From an uncultured Bacilli bacterium (GTDB taxonomy: Bacteria > Bacillota_I > Bacilli_A > RF39 > UBA660): a stretch of DNA of 43,399 bases. This document shows, in pieces, positions 30,562 to 43,399 of the stretch. The position numbers and the translations under genes are program-made. The stretch covers positions 1 to 43,399 of the forward strand of contig CALVRJ010000008.1 of the NCBI GenBank assembly GCA_944358545.1. The letters run 5' to 3'. Numbering within the stretch: the first letter of the stretch is position 1; the number at the start of each line of letters is the position of its first letter. The notes beneath the pieces are model-generated. The model searched no databases and was not told where the DNA came from. It saw only the letters and a list, made by a program, of their open reading frames with translations.

Positions 30562-31490
30562 ACGATTTTAAATATACTCTTTCTCTTAATCAGTTTTTGC
30601 GCTATTATTAAATCCTCCGATATTGTAATAAATACGGCATCTTTCTTAGCCCTAAAACTTAAAATACCTAAAATACTAATCGCTCTAACAATCATATTCT
30701 TTGGAACGTGTACCCCTGAAGTTGCCATCTCATTTCAAAGTATAAGTCAAGGTAACAGTTACATTGCCTTTGCGAATGTTATCGGAAGCTGCATTGTCAA
30801 AGTCTTTCTAATTATTGTTCTTGCCAATTTTATCCATTCGATTAAAGTTAAACACGCAACCATAAAAAATTACCTTTCCTAACCATCATTACTTCAATCT
30901 TTGCCATTCAAACATTAGACAGTCTTTTTAATCCAAAAACCGATAATACCTTTTTACGTTCAGATGCTCATATTTTAATTTTACTTTTTTGTTTATTTAT
31001 AGTCTACTTAGTACAAATACTTCTTCATAAGAAAAAAGAACAAAACGAAAAAAATATCAACATCAAATATACCCCTTTGCTTGCTTGTTTCTACCTTATT
31101 ATTTCAATAGTTCTCATTATCTATAGTAGTGAACTAATCGTAAACGAAGCTAAAGTAATTACTCAAAATCTAAAAATAAGTGAAAAAAGAATTACCATGT
31201 TTATAATCGTTGTTGGAACAAGTCTCCCCAAAATTATAATGACAATTGCAGGCGCAAAAAAATAAATTTAATATAGCTAGTAATATTATTAGAACTAACA
31301 TCTTTAATATTTGTGTTGTTCTAAGTCTACCAATCTTATTTTATAAAAGTATTATCTTAATCGGTTTTGGAAGCATTGACATCATTATAATTTTCCTATC
31401 TTCTTTCTCTTTATCTTTGCCCGTAGTGAAAAAAAAGGCCTTATAACGATTATAATATTCATACTCTATTATACATACCTTCTAGTTTAA
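30562..31490 (+). pseudogene. Ca2+/cation antiporter (CaCA family) pseudogene
   Basis: Joining three frames gives a protein of about 310 residues, the usual length for bacterial YrbG-type sodium/calcium exchangers. The first alpha repeat is visible as GTCTPEVAISFQSISQGN...NVIGSCIV and the second as VGTSLPKIIMTIAGA...FNIASNIIRTNIFNI. The start appears to be ACG (30562-30564) in place of ATG. Frames change at an A6 run near 30870 (one A short), an A7 run at 31256-31262 (one A extra) and an A8 run at 31429-31436 (one A short). The last piece ends LITIIIFILYYTYLLV. Such a gene would normally export calcium using a cation gradient. Confidence 0.85.
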
Positions 31491-32465
31491 TTTCTTCGCA
31501 TGAACAACAAGCCTTTGCGTATTACCATAACATGTCGACAACGTTAAAATTTTATCGTTCGCACCAACATCTACCTTAAAATCATAAATACTTCTACTTT
31601 TTAAAACATTTACGAAGTCTAAAAATTCTTGTTCTGTAAACATAGTTTTTAAATAATCAGAAGTCGTATCTATTGTATATATCGAAAAAATTTGCCAATT
31701 GCTTGCTTCATTAATTGTATTAAATGTAATCACTTGATTGGTTTTATTAGTATACCAACTTTTATTTAAAGTTCTATATAACCGAGCAAACATTACCTTC
31801 GCACTATCATGTCCATAAATTATCGTATTTTTACCTAATGTTGCTGCATTATTCCTATAATCCATAAATACCCAACCATAACGATTACTATTATTTTCAA
31901 AATCATGACTCAAATAATAATCATTATCACTATGCTGTACAACAGGATAATCTATATTTGTTCCATTTACAGTTAACCACCCTACAGTCTCACTATTTAT
32001 CTGTTTAAGTTCATTAAACATTTTTGAATACTTTTTGTTATAAGGTGTAGTTTCTACCTTTTTCGTAGAATCAACATTATCGAGTTTTATTTCTATTTTA
32101 GGCTTATATTTAATTATTTTTTTACTTAACTTTTCTGTAGACTTTTGTGAAAACCAAAAACTTGCTAAATAAAAAATTACAAATATAATAATTATTATCA
32201 TCAAAATAAATAACAAATTCATTACTATTTGTTTCTTTCTATTTTCCTTTATATAATCACTTGAATATATAATCTTTATTTTAATCTTTTTATATCTTTT
32301 TTTAATCTCTTTTAATCGCTTAAAATCACGAACTACATCACCATTATTTTCATAAATATATACTGCAACATCATAACGATTATAAGCATCGAGTGTTTGA
32401 ACAGCTCTCAAAACAGCATTGTAATTATATTCTTTAATATCATAATGTATATTATCTTTTTTCAC
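31482..32465 (-). CDS. Class B-type sortase with cytosolic N-terminal extension
   Basis: This transpeptidase attaches secreted proteins to the cell wall. The catalytic domain (about 140-327) has the class B start SETVGWLTVNGTNIDYPVVQ, DYYLSHDF, His219 (NTIIYGHD), Cys312 (LTLSTCYG) and Arg318 (QRLVVHAKK). One membrane segment lies at about 81-104. Unusually, some 78 residues precede it; these are basic, partly alpha/beta-like (YDVAVYIYENNGDVVRDFK) and would be cytosolic. The GTG at 32465 is preferred, with AGGATGTGA at proper distance; another GTG is 9 nt upstream. The divergent neighbour carries an NPKTG sorting signal and is the likely substrate. Its end overlaps the antiporter pseudogene by 9 nt. 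Confidence 0.9.
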   Translation of the reverse strand: MKKDNIHYDIKEYNYNAVLRAVQTLDAYNRYDVAVYIYENNGDVVRDFKRLKEIKKRYKKIKIKIIYSSDYIKENRKKQIVMNLLFILMIIIIIFVIFYLASFWFSQKSTEKLSKKIIKYKPKIEIKLDNVDSTKKVETTPYNKKYSKMFNELKQINSETVGWLTVNGTNIDYPVVQHSDNDYYLSHDFENNSNRYGWVFMDYRNNAATLGKNTIIYGHDSAKVMFARLYRTLNKSWYTNKTNQVITFNTINEASNWQIFSIYTIDTTSDYLKTMFTEQEFLDFVNVLKSRSIYDFKVDVGANDKILTLSTCYGNTQRLVVHAKKLN

Positions 32466-32470
32466 TAAAG

Positions 32471-32503
32471 TCACATCCTATTTTAAGAATATCACATCCT
32501 ATT
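32471..32503. repeat. 12-bp direct repeat spaced 21 bp in a divergent promoter region
   Basis: TCACATCCTATT occurs at 32471-32482 and 32492-32503, a 21-bp period (two helical turns) between the divergent sortase and NPKTG-protein genes. On the minus strand it reads AATAGGATGTGA twice. It could be a paired operator, or a duplicated sortase RBS region. Confidence 0.5.
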
Positions 32504-37854: not shown

Positions 37855-37880
37855 GAAAAAACAGTCTATATGACTGTTTT
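37855..37880 (-). terminator. Terminator after the 42-bp repeat gene
   Basis: AAACAGTC pairs with GACTGTTT around ATATA, followed by TTTTTT on the minus strand. Confidence 0.7.
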
Positions 37881-38458
37881 TATCTATGTCTTCCTTTTTC
37901 TGGTTCATCAATTTCAATTACTCTAAAACCATCTAAAGACGACTTCAATTGATTTTTTGCCGTACTACTTGCCTCTGCTTTTTCTAAAGCAGGTTCTTTT
38001 GCCGTACTACTTACCTCTGTTTTTTCTAAAACAGGTTCTTTTGCCATACTACTTGCCTCTGTTTTTTCTAAAACAAGTTCTTTTGCCATACTACTTGCCT
38101 CTGTTTTTCCTAAAGCGGATTCTTTTGCCATACTACTCTTCTCTAATTCTTCAGGTGCTAAAGACTTCCCCATATTGTTAAGTAAAGACTCTTTCCGTTG
38201 TTCATCAAACACTACCTGTTTTACATTCCTATTTACTTTGTCAAAAGAATCATGAACCCTCTTCTTTAAATCTGTCACAAACAAATTAACCATTTGATTA
38301 GCATAACTTTTAATTTCATCATCATCTAATTTTCCATTAATGCTCTTTTTTAAAGCCAAAGTCACATTATCAATTAACTCATTATAATGACTTAAAGCAG
38401 TTTCTTCAGCTTTAAAATTTTTAACTAAACTCTCAAAGTTAGACTCTAAATCTGTCAT
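37880..38458 (-). CDS. Protein with tandem 14-residue repeats
   Basis: This 192-residue soluble protein has a helical N-terminal domain (1-105), four copies plus a partial of a 14-residue repeat of the form SSMAKExxLEKTEA (about 110-167), and a short C-terminal end (FRVIEIDEPEKGRHR). The repeats are coded by an exact 42-bp tandem array, so copy number may vary between strains. I do not recognise the domain. There is no signal peptide. The ATG at 38458 follows GAAAGGTGG; the longer frame lacks an RBS. It lies 56 nt downstream of the DUF3800 gene on the same strand, and a terminator follows. A leucine-rich plus-strand frame in the array is a shadow. Confidence 0.65.
   Translation of the reverse strand: MTDLESNFESLVKNFKAEETALSHYNELIDNVTLALKKSINGKLDDDEIKSYANQMVNLFVTDLKKRVHDSFDKVNRNVKQVVFDEQRKESLLNNMGKSLAPEELEKSSMAKESALGKTEASSMAKELVLEKTEASSMAKEPVLEKTEVSSTAKEPALEKAEASSTAKNQLKSSLDGFRVIEIDEPEKGRHR
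37959..38141 (-). repeat. 42-bp tandem repeat array
   Basis: Four complete units of exactly 42 bp (37959-38000, 38001-38042, 38043-38084, 38085-38126) and a partial fifth. Each starts GCC(G/A)TACTACTT on the plus strand. Units differ at a few positions, and the length keeps frame. Confidence 0.9.
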
Positions 38459-38514
38459 AATTAACCACCTTTCTATCATCTTAATAATATCAAAAAATAA
38501 AAATAAAAGCAATG

Positions 38515-39207
38515 TTATATCCTTATTTTAAATAAATTAAACTTTTTAGAACTTTTAAAAGTAGGTAAAATTTCCCTTCCAAGTTTTTCTTCAAAATAAC
38601 TTACCAATTTTAATTTAACTTTTGAAATTCCTCTATTACCCAAATTAACTTTATAAGCAACTATTCCCATTAAAATATCTTCAAGCTGTAAAAGAACGTT
38701 TTTTTCAGAATCAATTTCAGTTATATCTTTCACACATTTAAAATGATGGCTATTATTCAAACATTCTTTTAATTTTTGAAGTTCTTCAAAATCATCATAT
38801 ATTTTATCAGTATAAATATAGTATTCATTCTCTTTTAAAATCCAGTTATTCAAAAGTTGATAATAAAACTTATAAAAACCAAGTTCTGGATTATCTTCAT
38901 GATACTTATGCAAATTAACCTTAGATGAATCTATACAAATACATCTAAATTCAATATTAAAAGAAATATACACGTCAATAATCTCCATATATAATTTTAA
39001 TAATCTCTTTGTTACTTTACTCCATTTAACCTCATAAGATACACTTAAATTATACTTTTTCTTTAAATCATTAATTTTGGTTTCTATAATGCCTTTATCA
39101 TTAGAATTAATCATCACTCCTCCAATAAAAATATACCTATTAGTATCCGTTATTGATTTTTTATTATATAAAAGATCTTGTCTACTCTCATCACAATATA
39201 TTTCCAT
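38515..39207 (-). CDS. DUF3800 domain protein
   Basis: This 230-residue protein matches DUF3800: an N-terminal EIYCDESRQ, RYIFIGGVMI, a central YIYTDKIYDD and the conserved EKNVLLQLEDILMGIVAYK segment. The acidic residues (Asp6/Glu7, the Asp of YTDK and the Asp of LEDIL) suggest an RNase H-like nuclease site. DUF3800 genes are frequent in mobile elements and defence regions, and their function is not established. Here it is first of a two-gene unit with the repeat protein; the Abi_2 gene is about 1.4 kb downstream. Confidence 0.8.
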   Translation of the reverse strand: MEIYCDESRQDLLYNKKSITDTNRYIFIGGVMINSNDKGIIETKINDLKKKYNLSVSYEVKWSKVTKRLLKLYMEIIDVYISFNIEFRCICIDSSKVNLHKYHEDNPELGFYKFYYQLLNNWILKENEYYIYTDKIYDDFEELQKLKECLNNSHHFKCVKDITEIDSEKNVLLQLEDILMGIVAYKVNLGNRGISKVKLKLVSYFEEKLGREILPTFKSSKKFNLFKIRI

Positions 39208-39223
39208 TTGTCACCAAACCTTT

Positions 39224-39252
39224 CAAATAAAAGACAGTCTATTAAAACTGTC
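39224..39252 (-). terminator. Terminator of the adhesin-sortase operon
   Basis: GACAGT (39247-39252) pairs with ACTGTC (39233-39238), followed by TTTTATTTG on the minus strand, directly after the sortase stop. Confidence 0.65.
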
Positions 39253-39876
39253 TTATATGAGATAACCTATGACAACTAATTGCTTATCGTCGCCTTTACA
39301 TGTAATCATCGTAATAGCATTTTTATTATAATCTCTGTCGATTATAACCCTGCCTGTTTTCGAAACTTCATATATATTAGAAATTTTATACTTATATAAA
39401 GCATTCTTATAATTAACCATTACTATATCGCCATAAGTAAGCTCATGTAATCTATGAAAATAAGCAATAGATGAATTGCCATTATGACTAGCTAAAATAA
39501 AGTTACCTAAATACTTATCTGGCATATCTGAAGATTTTAAAACTTCAATTCCTTTATCTACATTATTTAAGCTTGAATCTGTATCATAAAAATACTGCCT
39601 TAAACCAATTTTCTCAATTGTAATAATTCCTAAATAATTACTTACAGTAGTTTTTTTATCATCTGAAGTTGTTTTAGGAGTATCTTCTTCATCTTCTTTA
39701 AGCTTCACTTCTAAAGTATCCTCACTTTTATCTTCTGACACATTTTCTTTATTACATTCATTTATTACAGGTCTATAATCTAAAGCTTTATGCATTTCAT
39801 CTAAAACATATGAACAAAAACAGTAATGACCTAAAATAATTAGCACTATAGATAAATTTTTAACTACTTTTAACAC
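39253..39876 (-). CDS. Sortase, probable partner of the thioester adhesin
   Basis: This 207-residue sortase has an N-terminal anchor (about 5-25), an acidic linker (35-75) and a sortase domain (80-207) with ITIEKIGLRQYFYD, His131 (LASHNGNSS) and Cys193 (MITCKGDD). The position normally held by the catalytic Arg, just before LVV, is Gln199 (KQLVV); Lys198 is adjacent. This may mark a variant group or an altered active site. Its start lies inside the end of the thioester adhesin gene (17-nt overlap), so the two are translationally coupled and this enzyme probably anchors that adhesin via VPNTG. Its class cannot be set by eye; it is not class B. Confidence 0.85.
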   Translation of the reverse strand: MLKVVKNLSIVLIILGHYCFCSYVLDEMHKALDYRPVINECNKENVSEDKSEDTLEVKLKEDEEDTPKTTSDDKKTTVSNYLGIITIEKIGLRQYFYDTDSSLNNVDKGIEVLKSSDMPDKYLGNFILASHNGNSSIAYFHRLHELTYGDIVMVNYKNALYKYKISNIYEVSKTGRVIIDRDYNKNAITMITCKGDDKQLVVIGYLI

Positions 39877-40759
39877 GTATCAAGATACCTGCAGCAAAAA
39901 TTATAAAACTGAAAATAAACATTGAACTCATTCCAACACCAGTATTAGGAACATCGATTTCTTCATAATTTTCCAAAGTAAAATCACTACTAATATCATC
40001 CATTGTAATTCTTAAAGAAGCAAGCTTTTGTGAATTGCCTTTACAATAAACTAAAAGTGGCTGATTATCATAATATTCTTTTTTCTTCGTTAAAGTTATT
40101 TTTTCATCAGGAACTTTTTCTCCGTTTAAAGTAATCTCTAATTTATTACCGTCAATTTTAATATCATGATAATTACTTTTACTTACTTCAAAATTTTGTA
40201 AAATGTGATTCTCATCTTCTAACACTAATTTAGACCCAGTCACACCTTTATAAGTTTTATAACTAAAACTAGGCACTAAATCATGATTATTAACAAGCCT
40301 CATTATTTCATTTTTTTCTTCAGTTATATCGATAGCCTCACCAGTTTTATTTTCTCCTGTTGTCCATACAACCTCCATATCGGGTCTAACTGCTTTCCAA
40401 ATAAGTTCCTGAGCCGCAATATAATATCTACTAGTTTGATGACCAGGGAATTCATAACCGTAGTATCCAATTTTCTCGAGTTTACTTTTAAGTTCATCGC
40501 TCATATCAACTGCTGACCAATCAGTATAAATATCATAATATTTTTCATTAATCTCCACGCCAGGTTCAATACAATATGCATATCTATCTCCTAATTGAAA
40601 CTGTGTAACTGTGTTAGACATAAATTTTCCATCAACTGTAATATTATAAGCGATACCATGTAACTTATTATAAGTTATCGTTGTGCTTTCTAAAGCACTT
40701 GCCTTAACTCCAGTCATAATTACTAAAGCTAAAACACATAATTTAATTATTCTTTTCAT
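39860..40759 (-). CDS. Thioester-domain surface adhesin with VPNTG sorting signal
   Basis: A 299-residue secreted protein with signal peptide (1-21). The thioester-domain pattern is present: aromatic-Cys (YCIEPG, Cys63) and a hydrophobic-Q-x-x-hydrophobic-W segment (AAQELIW, Gln117). In the TED/TIE family these form an internal Cys-Gln thioester that bonds covalently to host proteins. A beta-rich second domain (about 165-255) recalls Cna-B-like folds. The C-terminus has VPNTG (about 270-274), a membrane segment and a basic tail. The ATG at 40759 follows AAAGGAG; the longer frame has no signal peptide at its start. It overlaps the following sortase gene by 17 nt. Confidence 0.85.
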   Translation of the reverse strand: MKRIIKLCVLALVIMTGVKASALESTTITYNKLHGIAYNITVDGKFMSNTVTQFQLGDRYAYCIEPGVEINEKYYDIYTDWSAVDMSDELKSKLEKIGYYGYEFPGHQTSRYYIAAQELIWKAVRPDMEVVWTTGENKTGEAIDITEEKNEIMRLVNNHDLVPSFSYKTYKGVTGSKLVLEDENHILQNFEVSKSNYHDIKIDGNKLEITLNGEKVPDEKITLTKKKEYYDNQPLLVYCKGNSQKLASLRITMDDISSDFTLENYEEIDVPNTGVGMSSMFIFSFIIFAAGILIRVKSS

Positions 40760-40857
40760 ATTACTCCTTTCTTGCCCCTTCATAGATATATATACGATGT
40801 TTTTTTCTGATTTCCTTTTTTTTCGTAAAATTTTTTTCGTTTTTTTCAAAAAAACAG

Positions 40858-40917: not shown

Positions 40918-43399
40918 CTATGATAAAATGTATGGATCTTGCATGGTTCCATTTCCGGAAAATTCTATTTTACTTGGGTCGATATTGATTACTGGTCTTA
41001 CTCCATAAATATCATTTACTCCACGTCTTTGAATATTACCCGTTGATTCTACATCTACATTTGCCGCATAAAACCACACATCAAAACTGTATGAAGTCAT
41101 TGTCCAATAATTATTACCGCTATACAAATAATAAAGCATATTGTTTGAATTAAAAGTTCCACCAGCCATTTTTGCTTCATCCATTGTAATTAGACCAACT
41201 GGATATGTAAGTTTTCCATTACCTTTTGTAGTACTTGCACTAAAACTATCGTTAATTGGACAAAATAAATTTGGAAAACCATTACCCATACCATAATAAA
41301 TTGTAGGGTTTAATCCATATGCTAAATTACTCCAAGAAACATTTGAACTATCTACAATAATTCGGTTATTACAAAATACTTCATTTTTGGAAAGTTTTTC
41401 AGTATAATTTTTTAAATTATTATTATACCAACTATCTAAATATGTTTTTACCGTACTATTCACATCATTACTTTGTGACTGTTCCTTTGTCGTAGTTCCA
41501 TATCCTAAGCCACTTAAGGTCATATTTGTAGATGAATTATATTTTTTAGTATATGATAAAAGCTGACAAACTGCATCCTTACTTGTACTAAAACATGTAT
41601 AATATCCTACTTTATCAGGCGCGATTGTTCCTCGAATTAAATCTCCAGAAAGTTTATAACCTCGGTTATTTTTATCTAATGTATAACTTGTTCCAAAATA
41701 ATAGTTTGCCGTATTTGATAAATTAGATTTATTATATGTCGATAAACCGCTATTTGTGCCAGTAAAATTATTTGGATTAGCATGCATATATCCAATATAT
41801 GTATTATCATTATTAAAATTATTAAATTTACTAGTTCCAATCTGTCTATCACTTGATGATTCACCGTTTATATGAGGATTTTTTCCGTCATATATAAGTC
41901 TTACGGTTCCATCTCCGTTTACTCTTATTACTCGCCAATAGAATCCGGCAAATTTAACATAATTACTTGATGTAGAACCACGGTAATAATACGTCATTCC
42001 ATCATCATCGCTGTTGGCATACATTCCAACACCAGTTATATCATAACTTTTTGGTATTTGTGAATAAGTATAATAAGTAAAATCGTAAACAACTTGACCC
42101 GAATCAGTCATTTCTTTAGACATATTAATGATTTTATATATTTGCGGCTGATTATTTAAAGTATCAATTCTAAAAAAAGTATAATAATTTTCTCCTTCGT
42201 TTAAATCAAAATCATTTAAATCATAAGGGGTTAAATTAGAAATATTATAATTACCCGTTTGCTTATCAAAAGTGTATTCTGTTCCAAAATAAATTCTACT
42301 AGAGCCAATTTTATTTGATGAGATATTTGTTTCATGCTTCTCATCATATAAAATGCTTGGACTTGTCTTTGTAAAATCTGGCGTTCCTTTAGCTTCAATA
42401 ATCGCCTTTGCTTCTTCAATATTTGGATTTTGGGCTTCAGTCGCAATTAAACAATCACCAAAATCATCAATATTGTTTTTCTTACAATATGAAGTATATC
42501 TAATTGCTGTTGACTGAGCTTTTATTTCACTCTCATTTACAGCTTTATCTTTTACATATGCAGTTACTAAATAATCGCCTTCATCTAAACCAGTAAATGT
42601 ATAGTTTGGATTATCACTTTCTATATAGGTCTTCCCGCCATCTTTACTATAGTAATATTTATATAACCCACTTTCATTATCTGTTGCTTCTAAAGTTACT
42701 TCCATTACATCATCTTTAGTTTCGATATTCATATTTGATAAAGTTGGTTCGTTTCCATCTACTTTATATTCACTACTACATTTATTCGTAGTGTTTCCAA
42801 CCATATCAGTTGCTTTTATACATAACTCTTGTGAATTTTTATTACTTTCTAAAGTTATAGTAGCTTTGTTATTTTCTAGATTTAATGCTTTATTAGGCGT
42901 GCAGTCTTTCCCTACACAATATAATACTTCTTTTACTTTATCATTATCTGTTACTTCCGTATTTAATGAAAGACCTTTATACCATCCATTTTCTCCTTTG
43001 ACATTATCACCTATATTTATATTTACTTTAGGAGATGTATTATCTAAAGTTGTAAATGGTTTACTACTATAGACTACTTTCCCATTATCTCCTTCAGCTT
43101 TTACATACATTGTATATGTTGTATTTGGTTTTAAATGATATATGTTATATATGTTTTCACTGCTTTCATACCATGTATTATTATCTATAGAGTAATAATA
43201 TTTTATTGCACCTTCCGCATCTATTTCTGCTTTCACACTTGTTTCGGTTGGAGTTAGTATAATATCGTTTATTCTTAAATTATCTTCTTCTGGACTATCG
43301 GCATCTGGAAATTCTGTAGGATGTCCATCTTGAACATAATCTAAATTTACATCAGCTTCCACACTTCCTACATCTTCTGGATTATTTCCGGTATATTCC
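40918..43399 (-). CDS. Large surface protein with Ig-like repeats, partial
   Basis: The frame is open through the window end, so only the C-terminal part (about 826 codons) is seen and the N-terminus lies beyond. Two or more Ig/fibronectin-like modules come first (for example SVKAEIDAEGAIKYYYSIDN, DNESGLYKYYYSKDGG, with paired Cys). A linker follows, then a C-terminal module of about 380 residues holding FAGFYWRVIRVNGDGTVRLIY, WTMTSYS and YGVRPVINIDP, ending DPYIL. The module is common in uncultured Bacillota and resembles DUF6273/SUMF-like folds; its function is unknown. YFGTEYTFDK and YFGTSYTLDK form an internal repeat. There is no sorting signal at the C-terminus. The GTG at 43362 is not the real start. 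Confidence 0.75.
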   Translation of the reverse strand, partial: EYTGNNPEDVGSVEADVNLDYVQDGHPTEFPDADSPEEDNLRINDIILTPTETSVKAEIDAEGAIKYYYSIDNNTWYESSENIYNIYHLKPNTTYTMYVKAEGDNGKVVYSSKPFTTLDNTSPKVNINIGDNVKGENGWYKGLSLNTEVTDNDKVKEVLYCVGKDCTPNKALNLENNKATITLESNKNSQELCIKATDMVGNTTNKCSSEYKVDGNEPTLSNMNIETKDDVMEVTLEATDNESGLYKYYYSKDGGKTYIESDNPNYTFTGLDEGDYLVTAYVKDKAVNESEIKAQSTAIRYTSYCKKNNIDDFGDCLIATEAQNPNIEEAKAIIEAKGTPDFTKTSPSILYDEKHETNISSNKIGSSRIYFGTEYTFDKQTGNYNISNLTPYDLNDFDLNEGENYYTFFRIDTLNNQPQIYKIINMSKEMTDSGQVVYDFTYYTYSQIPKSYDITGVGMYANSDDDGMTYYYRGSTSSNYVKFAGFYWRVIRVNGDGTVRLIYDGKNPHINGESSSDRQIGTSKFNNFNNDNTYIGYMHANPNNFTGTNSGLSTYNKSNLSNTANYYFGTSYTLDKNNRGYKLSGDLIRGTIAPDKVGYYTCFSTSKDAVCQLLSYTKKYNSSTNMTLSGLGYGTTTKEQSQSNDVNSTVKTYLDSWYNNNLKNYTEKLSKNEVFCNNRIIVDSSNVSWSNLAYGLNPTIYYGMGNGFPNLFCPINDSFSASTTKGNGKLTYPVGLITMDEAKMAGGTFNSNNMLYYLYSGNNYWTMTSYSFDVWFYAANVDVESTGNIQRRGVNDIYGVRPVINIDPSKIEFSGNGTMQDPYILS

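Follow-up and report, generated by a model that had tools for sequence, protein, structure and literature searches.

What would a surface protein that consists of little more than a thioester domain (TED) be used for, and why should its gene overlap that of a sortase? We analysed such a gene pair in a stretch of 43,399 nucleotides (hereafter the window) from contig CALVRJ010000008.1 of an uncultured gut bacterium. Among named records, Candidatus Coprosoma intestinipullorum comes closest (83% identity); Candidatus Coprosoma corresponds to CAG-822 of the order RF39 in GTDB (PMC8035907). A first-pass annotation, made from the letters alone, had proposed a thioester adhesin whose gene overlaps its own sortase by 17 nt, and both its coordinates and the overlap hold to the nucleotide. 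Since the Pfam models TED and Sortase both score above their cut-offs and the overlap is conserved in congeners, the observation is not a product of chance and we regard it as confirmed. The pair has the following layout:

39860..40759, minus strand: TED gene, 299 aa, encoding a stalkless protein assigned to the class II thioester-domain surface proteins (coding 39863-40759, stop codon 39860-39862)
40759, minus strand: ATG start codon of the TED gene, read from the sequence
40764..40769, minus strand: Shine-Dalgarno-like AAGGAG 5' of this ATG, read from the sequence
40691..40759, minus strand: probable Sec signal peptide, TED residues 1-23, MKRIIKLCVLALVIMTGVKASAL, assigned by inspection of the sequence
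39860..39876, minus strand: 17-nt overlap of the TED and sortase genes
39253..39876, minus strand: sortase gene with GTG start, 207 aa, N-terminal membrane anchor (Pfam Sortase 64.4 bits, E 1.1e-17)
39231..39254, minus strand: terminator-like hairpin

The two genes appear to form a closed operon, since the terminator-like hairpin begins at the sortase stop codon (one such hairpin was found in the region, with 0.6 expected by chance).

The TED protein carries three short motifs, Y62-C63-I64-E65-P66 (YCIEPG), A115/A116-Q117-E-L-I-W121 (AAQELIW) and V270-P-N-T-G274. The first two had been read as the signature of a thioester domain, which is borne out by Pfam TED (27.1 bits, cut-off 22, E 6e-6), a model matched by all 23 aligned genus members, and by homology to SaTIE-TED of Staphylococcus aureus (PDB 6fx6). 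YCIE at residues 62-65 fits the [YFL]C-hydrophobic-hydrophilic motif of TEDs, and AQELIW, which is TQELIW in many relatives, fits their TQxxPhiW helix motif. In a phmmer search against the PDB, 6fx6 was the one relevant chain (E 5.7e-12 over residues 36-263), and a profile of 23 relatives improved this match to E 5e-23. An AF2 model, built from the window protein and four relatives, reached moderate confidence (pLDDT 65, weakest around Cys63 and Gln244) and is adequate for fold assignment only. With this model, Foldseek returned 6fx6 as the only significant match (E 3e-10), and VIA-align placed the two together at Z 11.5 over 196 residues with an rmsd of 5.2, the next best structure scoring 7.8; 6fx6 was the only TED in the VIA-align list, which is not evidence that others are absent. 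Class II TEDs are defined by a beta-sandwich between helix 3 and the hairpin bearing the bond-forming Gln, and SaTIE-TED aligns across the whole of residues 36-263. Sequence and model thus support assignment to class II. The residues on which the function would depend are:

40571..40573, minus strand: codon of Cys63, aligned with SaTIE Cys296, predicted thioester residue
40028..40030, minus strand: codon of Gln244, aligned with SaTIE Gln467, predicted thioester partner
40409..40411, minus strand: codon of Gln117, part of the TQxxPhiW helper motif and by alignment not the bond former
39938..39952, minus strand: VPNTG sortase motif, V270-G274, with V270, P271 and T273 invariant in 23 relatives
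39863..39937, minus strand: remainder of the sorting signal, a hydrophobic segment (highest mean hydropathy over 19 residues 2.19) and a short, weakly basic tail

Which glutamine would close the thioester? The first-pass annotation had paired Cys63 with Gln117, a choice that does not withstand comparison with the known structure. In the phmmer alignment to 6fx6, Cys63 and Gln244 fall on chain positions 47 and 218, which correspond to Cys296 and Gln467 because the construct covers residues 254-502 in a chain of 253 residues; the bond between these two is visible in the SaTIE-TED crystal (PMC6194298). Both Cys63 and Gln244 are invariant in the 23 aligned sequences, of which the other 22 are 41-82% identical to the window protein. 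Gln244 lies near the C-terminus of the domain, as is typical of the bond-forming Gln, and is preceded by Ser, which departs from the weak PhiQ motif. Hence, we predict from the alignments that the thioester pair is Cys63-Gln244. Gln117 belongs to the TQxxPhiW motif, whose Gln and Trp the bond does not require (PMC4450167, PMC6194298), and it is replaced by Glu in a further relative beyond the 23 (locus L041) that keeps Cys63 and Gln244, so it can be ruled out as partner. A large distance between Cys63 and Gln117, which had been put forward as a refutation of the thioester domain, would therefore mislead and could lead to rejection of a true one.

At its C-terminus, the protein has the parts of a cell wall sorting signal, namely a pentapeptide, a hydrophobic segment and a tail with two basic residues. 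VPNTG and the hydrophobic stretch are as first described, but the 'basic tail', IRVKSS, is only weakly basic. The homology to SaTIE-TED ends at residue 263, about six residues before VPNTG, and a Pfam scan found no isopeptide, ester or SpaA domain in the 299 residues, so that the TED fills the mature protein. SaTIE shares the class II TED by sequence and fold, the equivalent Cys and Gln and the TQxxPhiW motif, but bears a stalk made up of four isopeptide and two ester domains. Because isopeptide and/or ester domains are what marks TIE proteins, the window protein qualifies as a TED protein but, strictly speaking, not as a TIE protein; the earlier term 'TIE adhesin' went too far. Judged from its sequence, the domain would be placed immediately at the wall and, lacking a stalk, may fail to clear a thick one.

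The two-gene arrangement turned out to be a property of the genus. A TED match is present in 41 of 44 Coprosoma genomes and the form of about 300 aa in 40 of 44, while one genome (G008) has a stalked form only. At every stalkless congener locus examined, the TED gene is followed by an overlapping sortase gene, in agreement with the proposal of a two-gene module with a dedicated sortase in a low-GC gut lineage. Further along most congener loci follow genes for an amidase, an Abi_2-like protein, an HtrA-like protease and a cell-wall hydrolase. In the window, a DUF3800 gene (38515-39207, minus strand) and a repeat-rich ORF (37880-38512, minus strand) lie between the sortase gene and the usually adjacent amidase gene; the ORF contains a 42-bp tandem repeat (37955-38137, 4.4 copies) that encodes SSMAKEPVLEKTEA-like units. 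On the other side, where congeners usually have a membrane protein, stands a surface-like protein of at least 826 aa (40918-43398, minus strand) with weak fn3/Y_Y_Y matches, which is cut by the contig end and has no sorting signal.

In a wider sample of the order, TEDs occur in 155 of 193 genomes and nearly all are stalked. A paralogue in the same genome (contig C2) contains a TED, two SpaA domains and VPNTQ, and its gene too is overlapped by that of a sortase. Among 19 TEDs outside the genus (loci L143-L162, leaving out L146, where the contig ends 130 bases after the TED), 12 have an overlapping sortase, three are fused to one and four have none nearby, which makes 15 of 19 when fusions are counted. 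A second stalkless TED of about 290 aa, with 28% identity, was found in another genus (L059, genome G049), where it may reflect an independent loss of the stalk; its overlapping sortase keeps the canonical Arg.

Strong evidence that TED and neighbouring sortase work as partners comes from the related genus g53, in which both are fused. There, TED, five SpaA domains, VPNTG, two transmembrane helices and the sortase form one ORF of about 975-1010 residues:

L143:914-3868, minus strand: fused TED-sortase ORF
L144:531-3473, plus strand: fused TED-sortase ORF
L145:441-3392, plus strand: fused TED-sortase ORF
L163-L171: fused TED-sortase ORF at further g53 loci

The ORF is full length in nine of 11 g53 genomes, with a C-terminal fragment in a tenth. 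A sequencing error can be dismissed as its origin, as these nine genomes match over the full length, those other than the query's own at 53-61% identity to it. A hairpin of the two helices with a short basic turn between them is possible and would leave both TED and sortase outside. Our literature searches, of partial coverage, found no report of a sortase-substrate fusion.

In our view, the pair is probably an operon of two genes, one for a surface protein with covalent reactivity and one for the dedicated enzyme that anchors it. Sequence and homology show the fold family, the equivalence of the key residues, the sorting signal, the gene overlap, the conservation of the pair and its natural fusion in g53, from which we infer the steps that follow. 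The TED protein would be exported through Sec and its Cys63-Gln244 thioester would form by itself, while translation of the overlapping gene, coupled to that of the TED gene, would supply the membrane-bound sortase. The sortase would then cleave the protein between Thr and Gly of VPNTG and join it to the cell wall, where the exposed thioester could link itself covalently to an amine (lysine) of a partner molecule. But, which molecule would that be? Binding to host proteins, as claimed in the first-pass annotation, overstates the case: in the literature covered, which is partial, none of the class II TEDs has a reported host receptor, and BaTIE failed to bind collagens (PMC6194298). Since the TED has no stalk, its target is likely to be found at or near the bacterial surface, be it another cell, mucus or a wall-associated partner, and a distant host receptor is less likely.

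The same anchoring could serve contact between bacteria, in mating pairs or aggregates, with a different target and no attachment to the host. The only phenotype of a class II TED in the literature covered is mating-pair contact during conjugation of plasmid pLS20 (PMC8092201), and the TED gene of Coprosoma is near-core, chromosomal and set among conserved neighbours. TIEpLS20 of Bacillus subtilis is likewise a class II TED surface protein with an essential Cys; however, it has a CnaB stalk, neither sorting signal nor sortase, and is borne on a plasmid, whereas the window TED is chromosomal and has its own sortase. Against a role in mating stands that the neighbours of the TED gene are envelope genes, with no conjugation genes beside it. 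We consider bacterial contact a serious contender, if somewhat short of an even chance, and the data do not support favouring host binding over it.

Does the protein, without a stalk of its own, instead sit at the tip of a larger structure? Cpa of Streptococcus pyogenes is a TED tip protein attached to Streptococcus pili, which carries a VP-type motif and is encoded beside a sortase. By analogy, the sortase would attach the window TED in trans to a separate stalk or pilin, which would suit a stalkless protein, a dedicated sortase and a VPNTG motif that resembles that of Cpa. However, the S. pyogenes pilus islands differ from this locus, at which no pilin-like gene is conserved beside the TED gene in congeners, and in the stalked and fused relatives the stalk is part of the TED polypeptide itself. 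Nor is the window sortase a class C enzyme by curated cut-off: it reaches 56.8 of the 160 bits needed for the NCBIfam class C model and shows no visible class C lid. Of the curated models, only the generic TIGR01076 passes, while classes C, D, E and F all score far below their cut-offs. A tip subunit is therefore an unlikely reading.

Slightly less probable still is that the sortase, for lack of the catalytic Arg, is inactive or acts as a chaperone, and that the TED protein is anchored by a different sortase encoded elsewhere in the genome. The window sortase shares His, Cys and a TLxTC-like motif with the sortases of classes A-F, but has Gln in place of the catalytic Arg and stays below every class-level NCBIfam cut-off tested:

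39484..39486, minus strand: codon of catalytic His131, invariant in 88 of 88 distinct sequences
39298..39300, minus strand: codon of catalytic Cys193, present in 86 of 86 sequences covering the site
39280..39282, minus strand: codon of Gln199, aligned with the catalytic Arg of 2kw8 (KQLVVIG against KRYVVAG)
39334..39336, minus strand: codon of conserved Arg181, 12 residues before Cys193, candidate substitute

Activity is not assured, since all sortases are stated to have His-Cys-Arg, with R200A abolishing the activity of Filifactor SrtA (PMC13257024), and Gln occupies this position in 42 of 43 members of the window sortase's own family. Six other sortase hits in the genome could in principle take over; yet three of them (at loci L001, L004 and L006) carry Gln as well, His and Cys are invariant, and TED and sortase stay together as a conserved gene pair or as a fusion. 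Arg is kept in two class B-like sortases of the genome. A separate class B sortase in the window (31482-32474, minus strand) has TIGR03064 above cut-off and the canonical Arg. Moreover, Arg181 may substitute for the missing residue. It is present in 56 of 68 Gln-type sortases, with Lys in six more, and absent in five that have Arg aligned at the canonical site; since the tree gives only two to three independent contrasts, we treat this Arg181/Gln199 swap as a hypothesis. The predicted sortase structure (pLDDT 55) is too poor to place either residue. Arg-to-Gln sortases did not appear in our literature searches, again of partial coverage. Finally, a degenerate TED that has lost its thioester and is kept for a structural role is very improbable given the invariance of Cys63 and Gln244 across such divergent relatives.

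The sorting signal shows an unexpected variation within Coprosoma. Ten species (L037-L041, L043 and L047-L050), of which nine form one clade in the tree (support 96/96) and L041 was placed by sequence, keep VPxT without a membrane segment behind it. Their TEDs end in a polar tail of about 22 residues after VPxT, often with KHFNV or KHFGV, and no hydrophobic segment was found in frame behind the motif in any of the ten. Their sortases lack the long linker and have a short hydrophobic N-terminus, in several cases ending in A-x-A like a cleavable signal. As VPxT is retained in this clade, the sequences suggest that it is still cut. A programmed frameshift that joins TED and sortase was considered and rejected, as a single transmembrane segment would leave the sortase in the cytoplasm. 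We tentatively suggest, well aware that this is the more doubtful part of our interpretation, that in the Gln-type sortases of the RF39 family the Arg may have moved from the strand behind the catalytic Cys to 12 residues before it and that each enzyme may have become specialised for one adjacent TED, with the g53 fusion, as a polypeptide that would anchor itself, and the anchorless Coprosoma clade as outcome.

If our reading of the pair is right, a minimal covalent surface module belongs to the near-core chromosomal equipment of an uncultured gut lineage. It would also represent an unusually clean sortase system of one enzyme and one substrate, in which natural fusions report the pairing. Two rules would then be open to question: the need of every sortase for His-Cys-Arg, in view of the Gln-type enzymes, and the need of a sortase substrate for a membrane segment, in view of the anchorless sorting signals.
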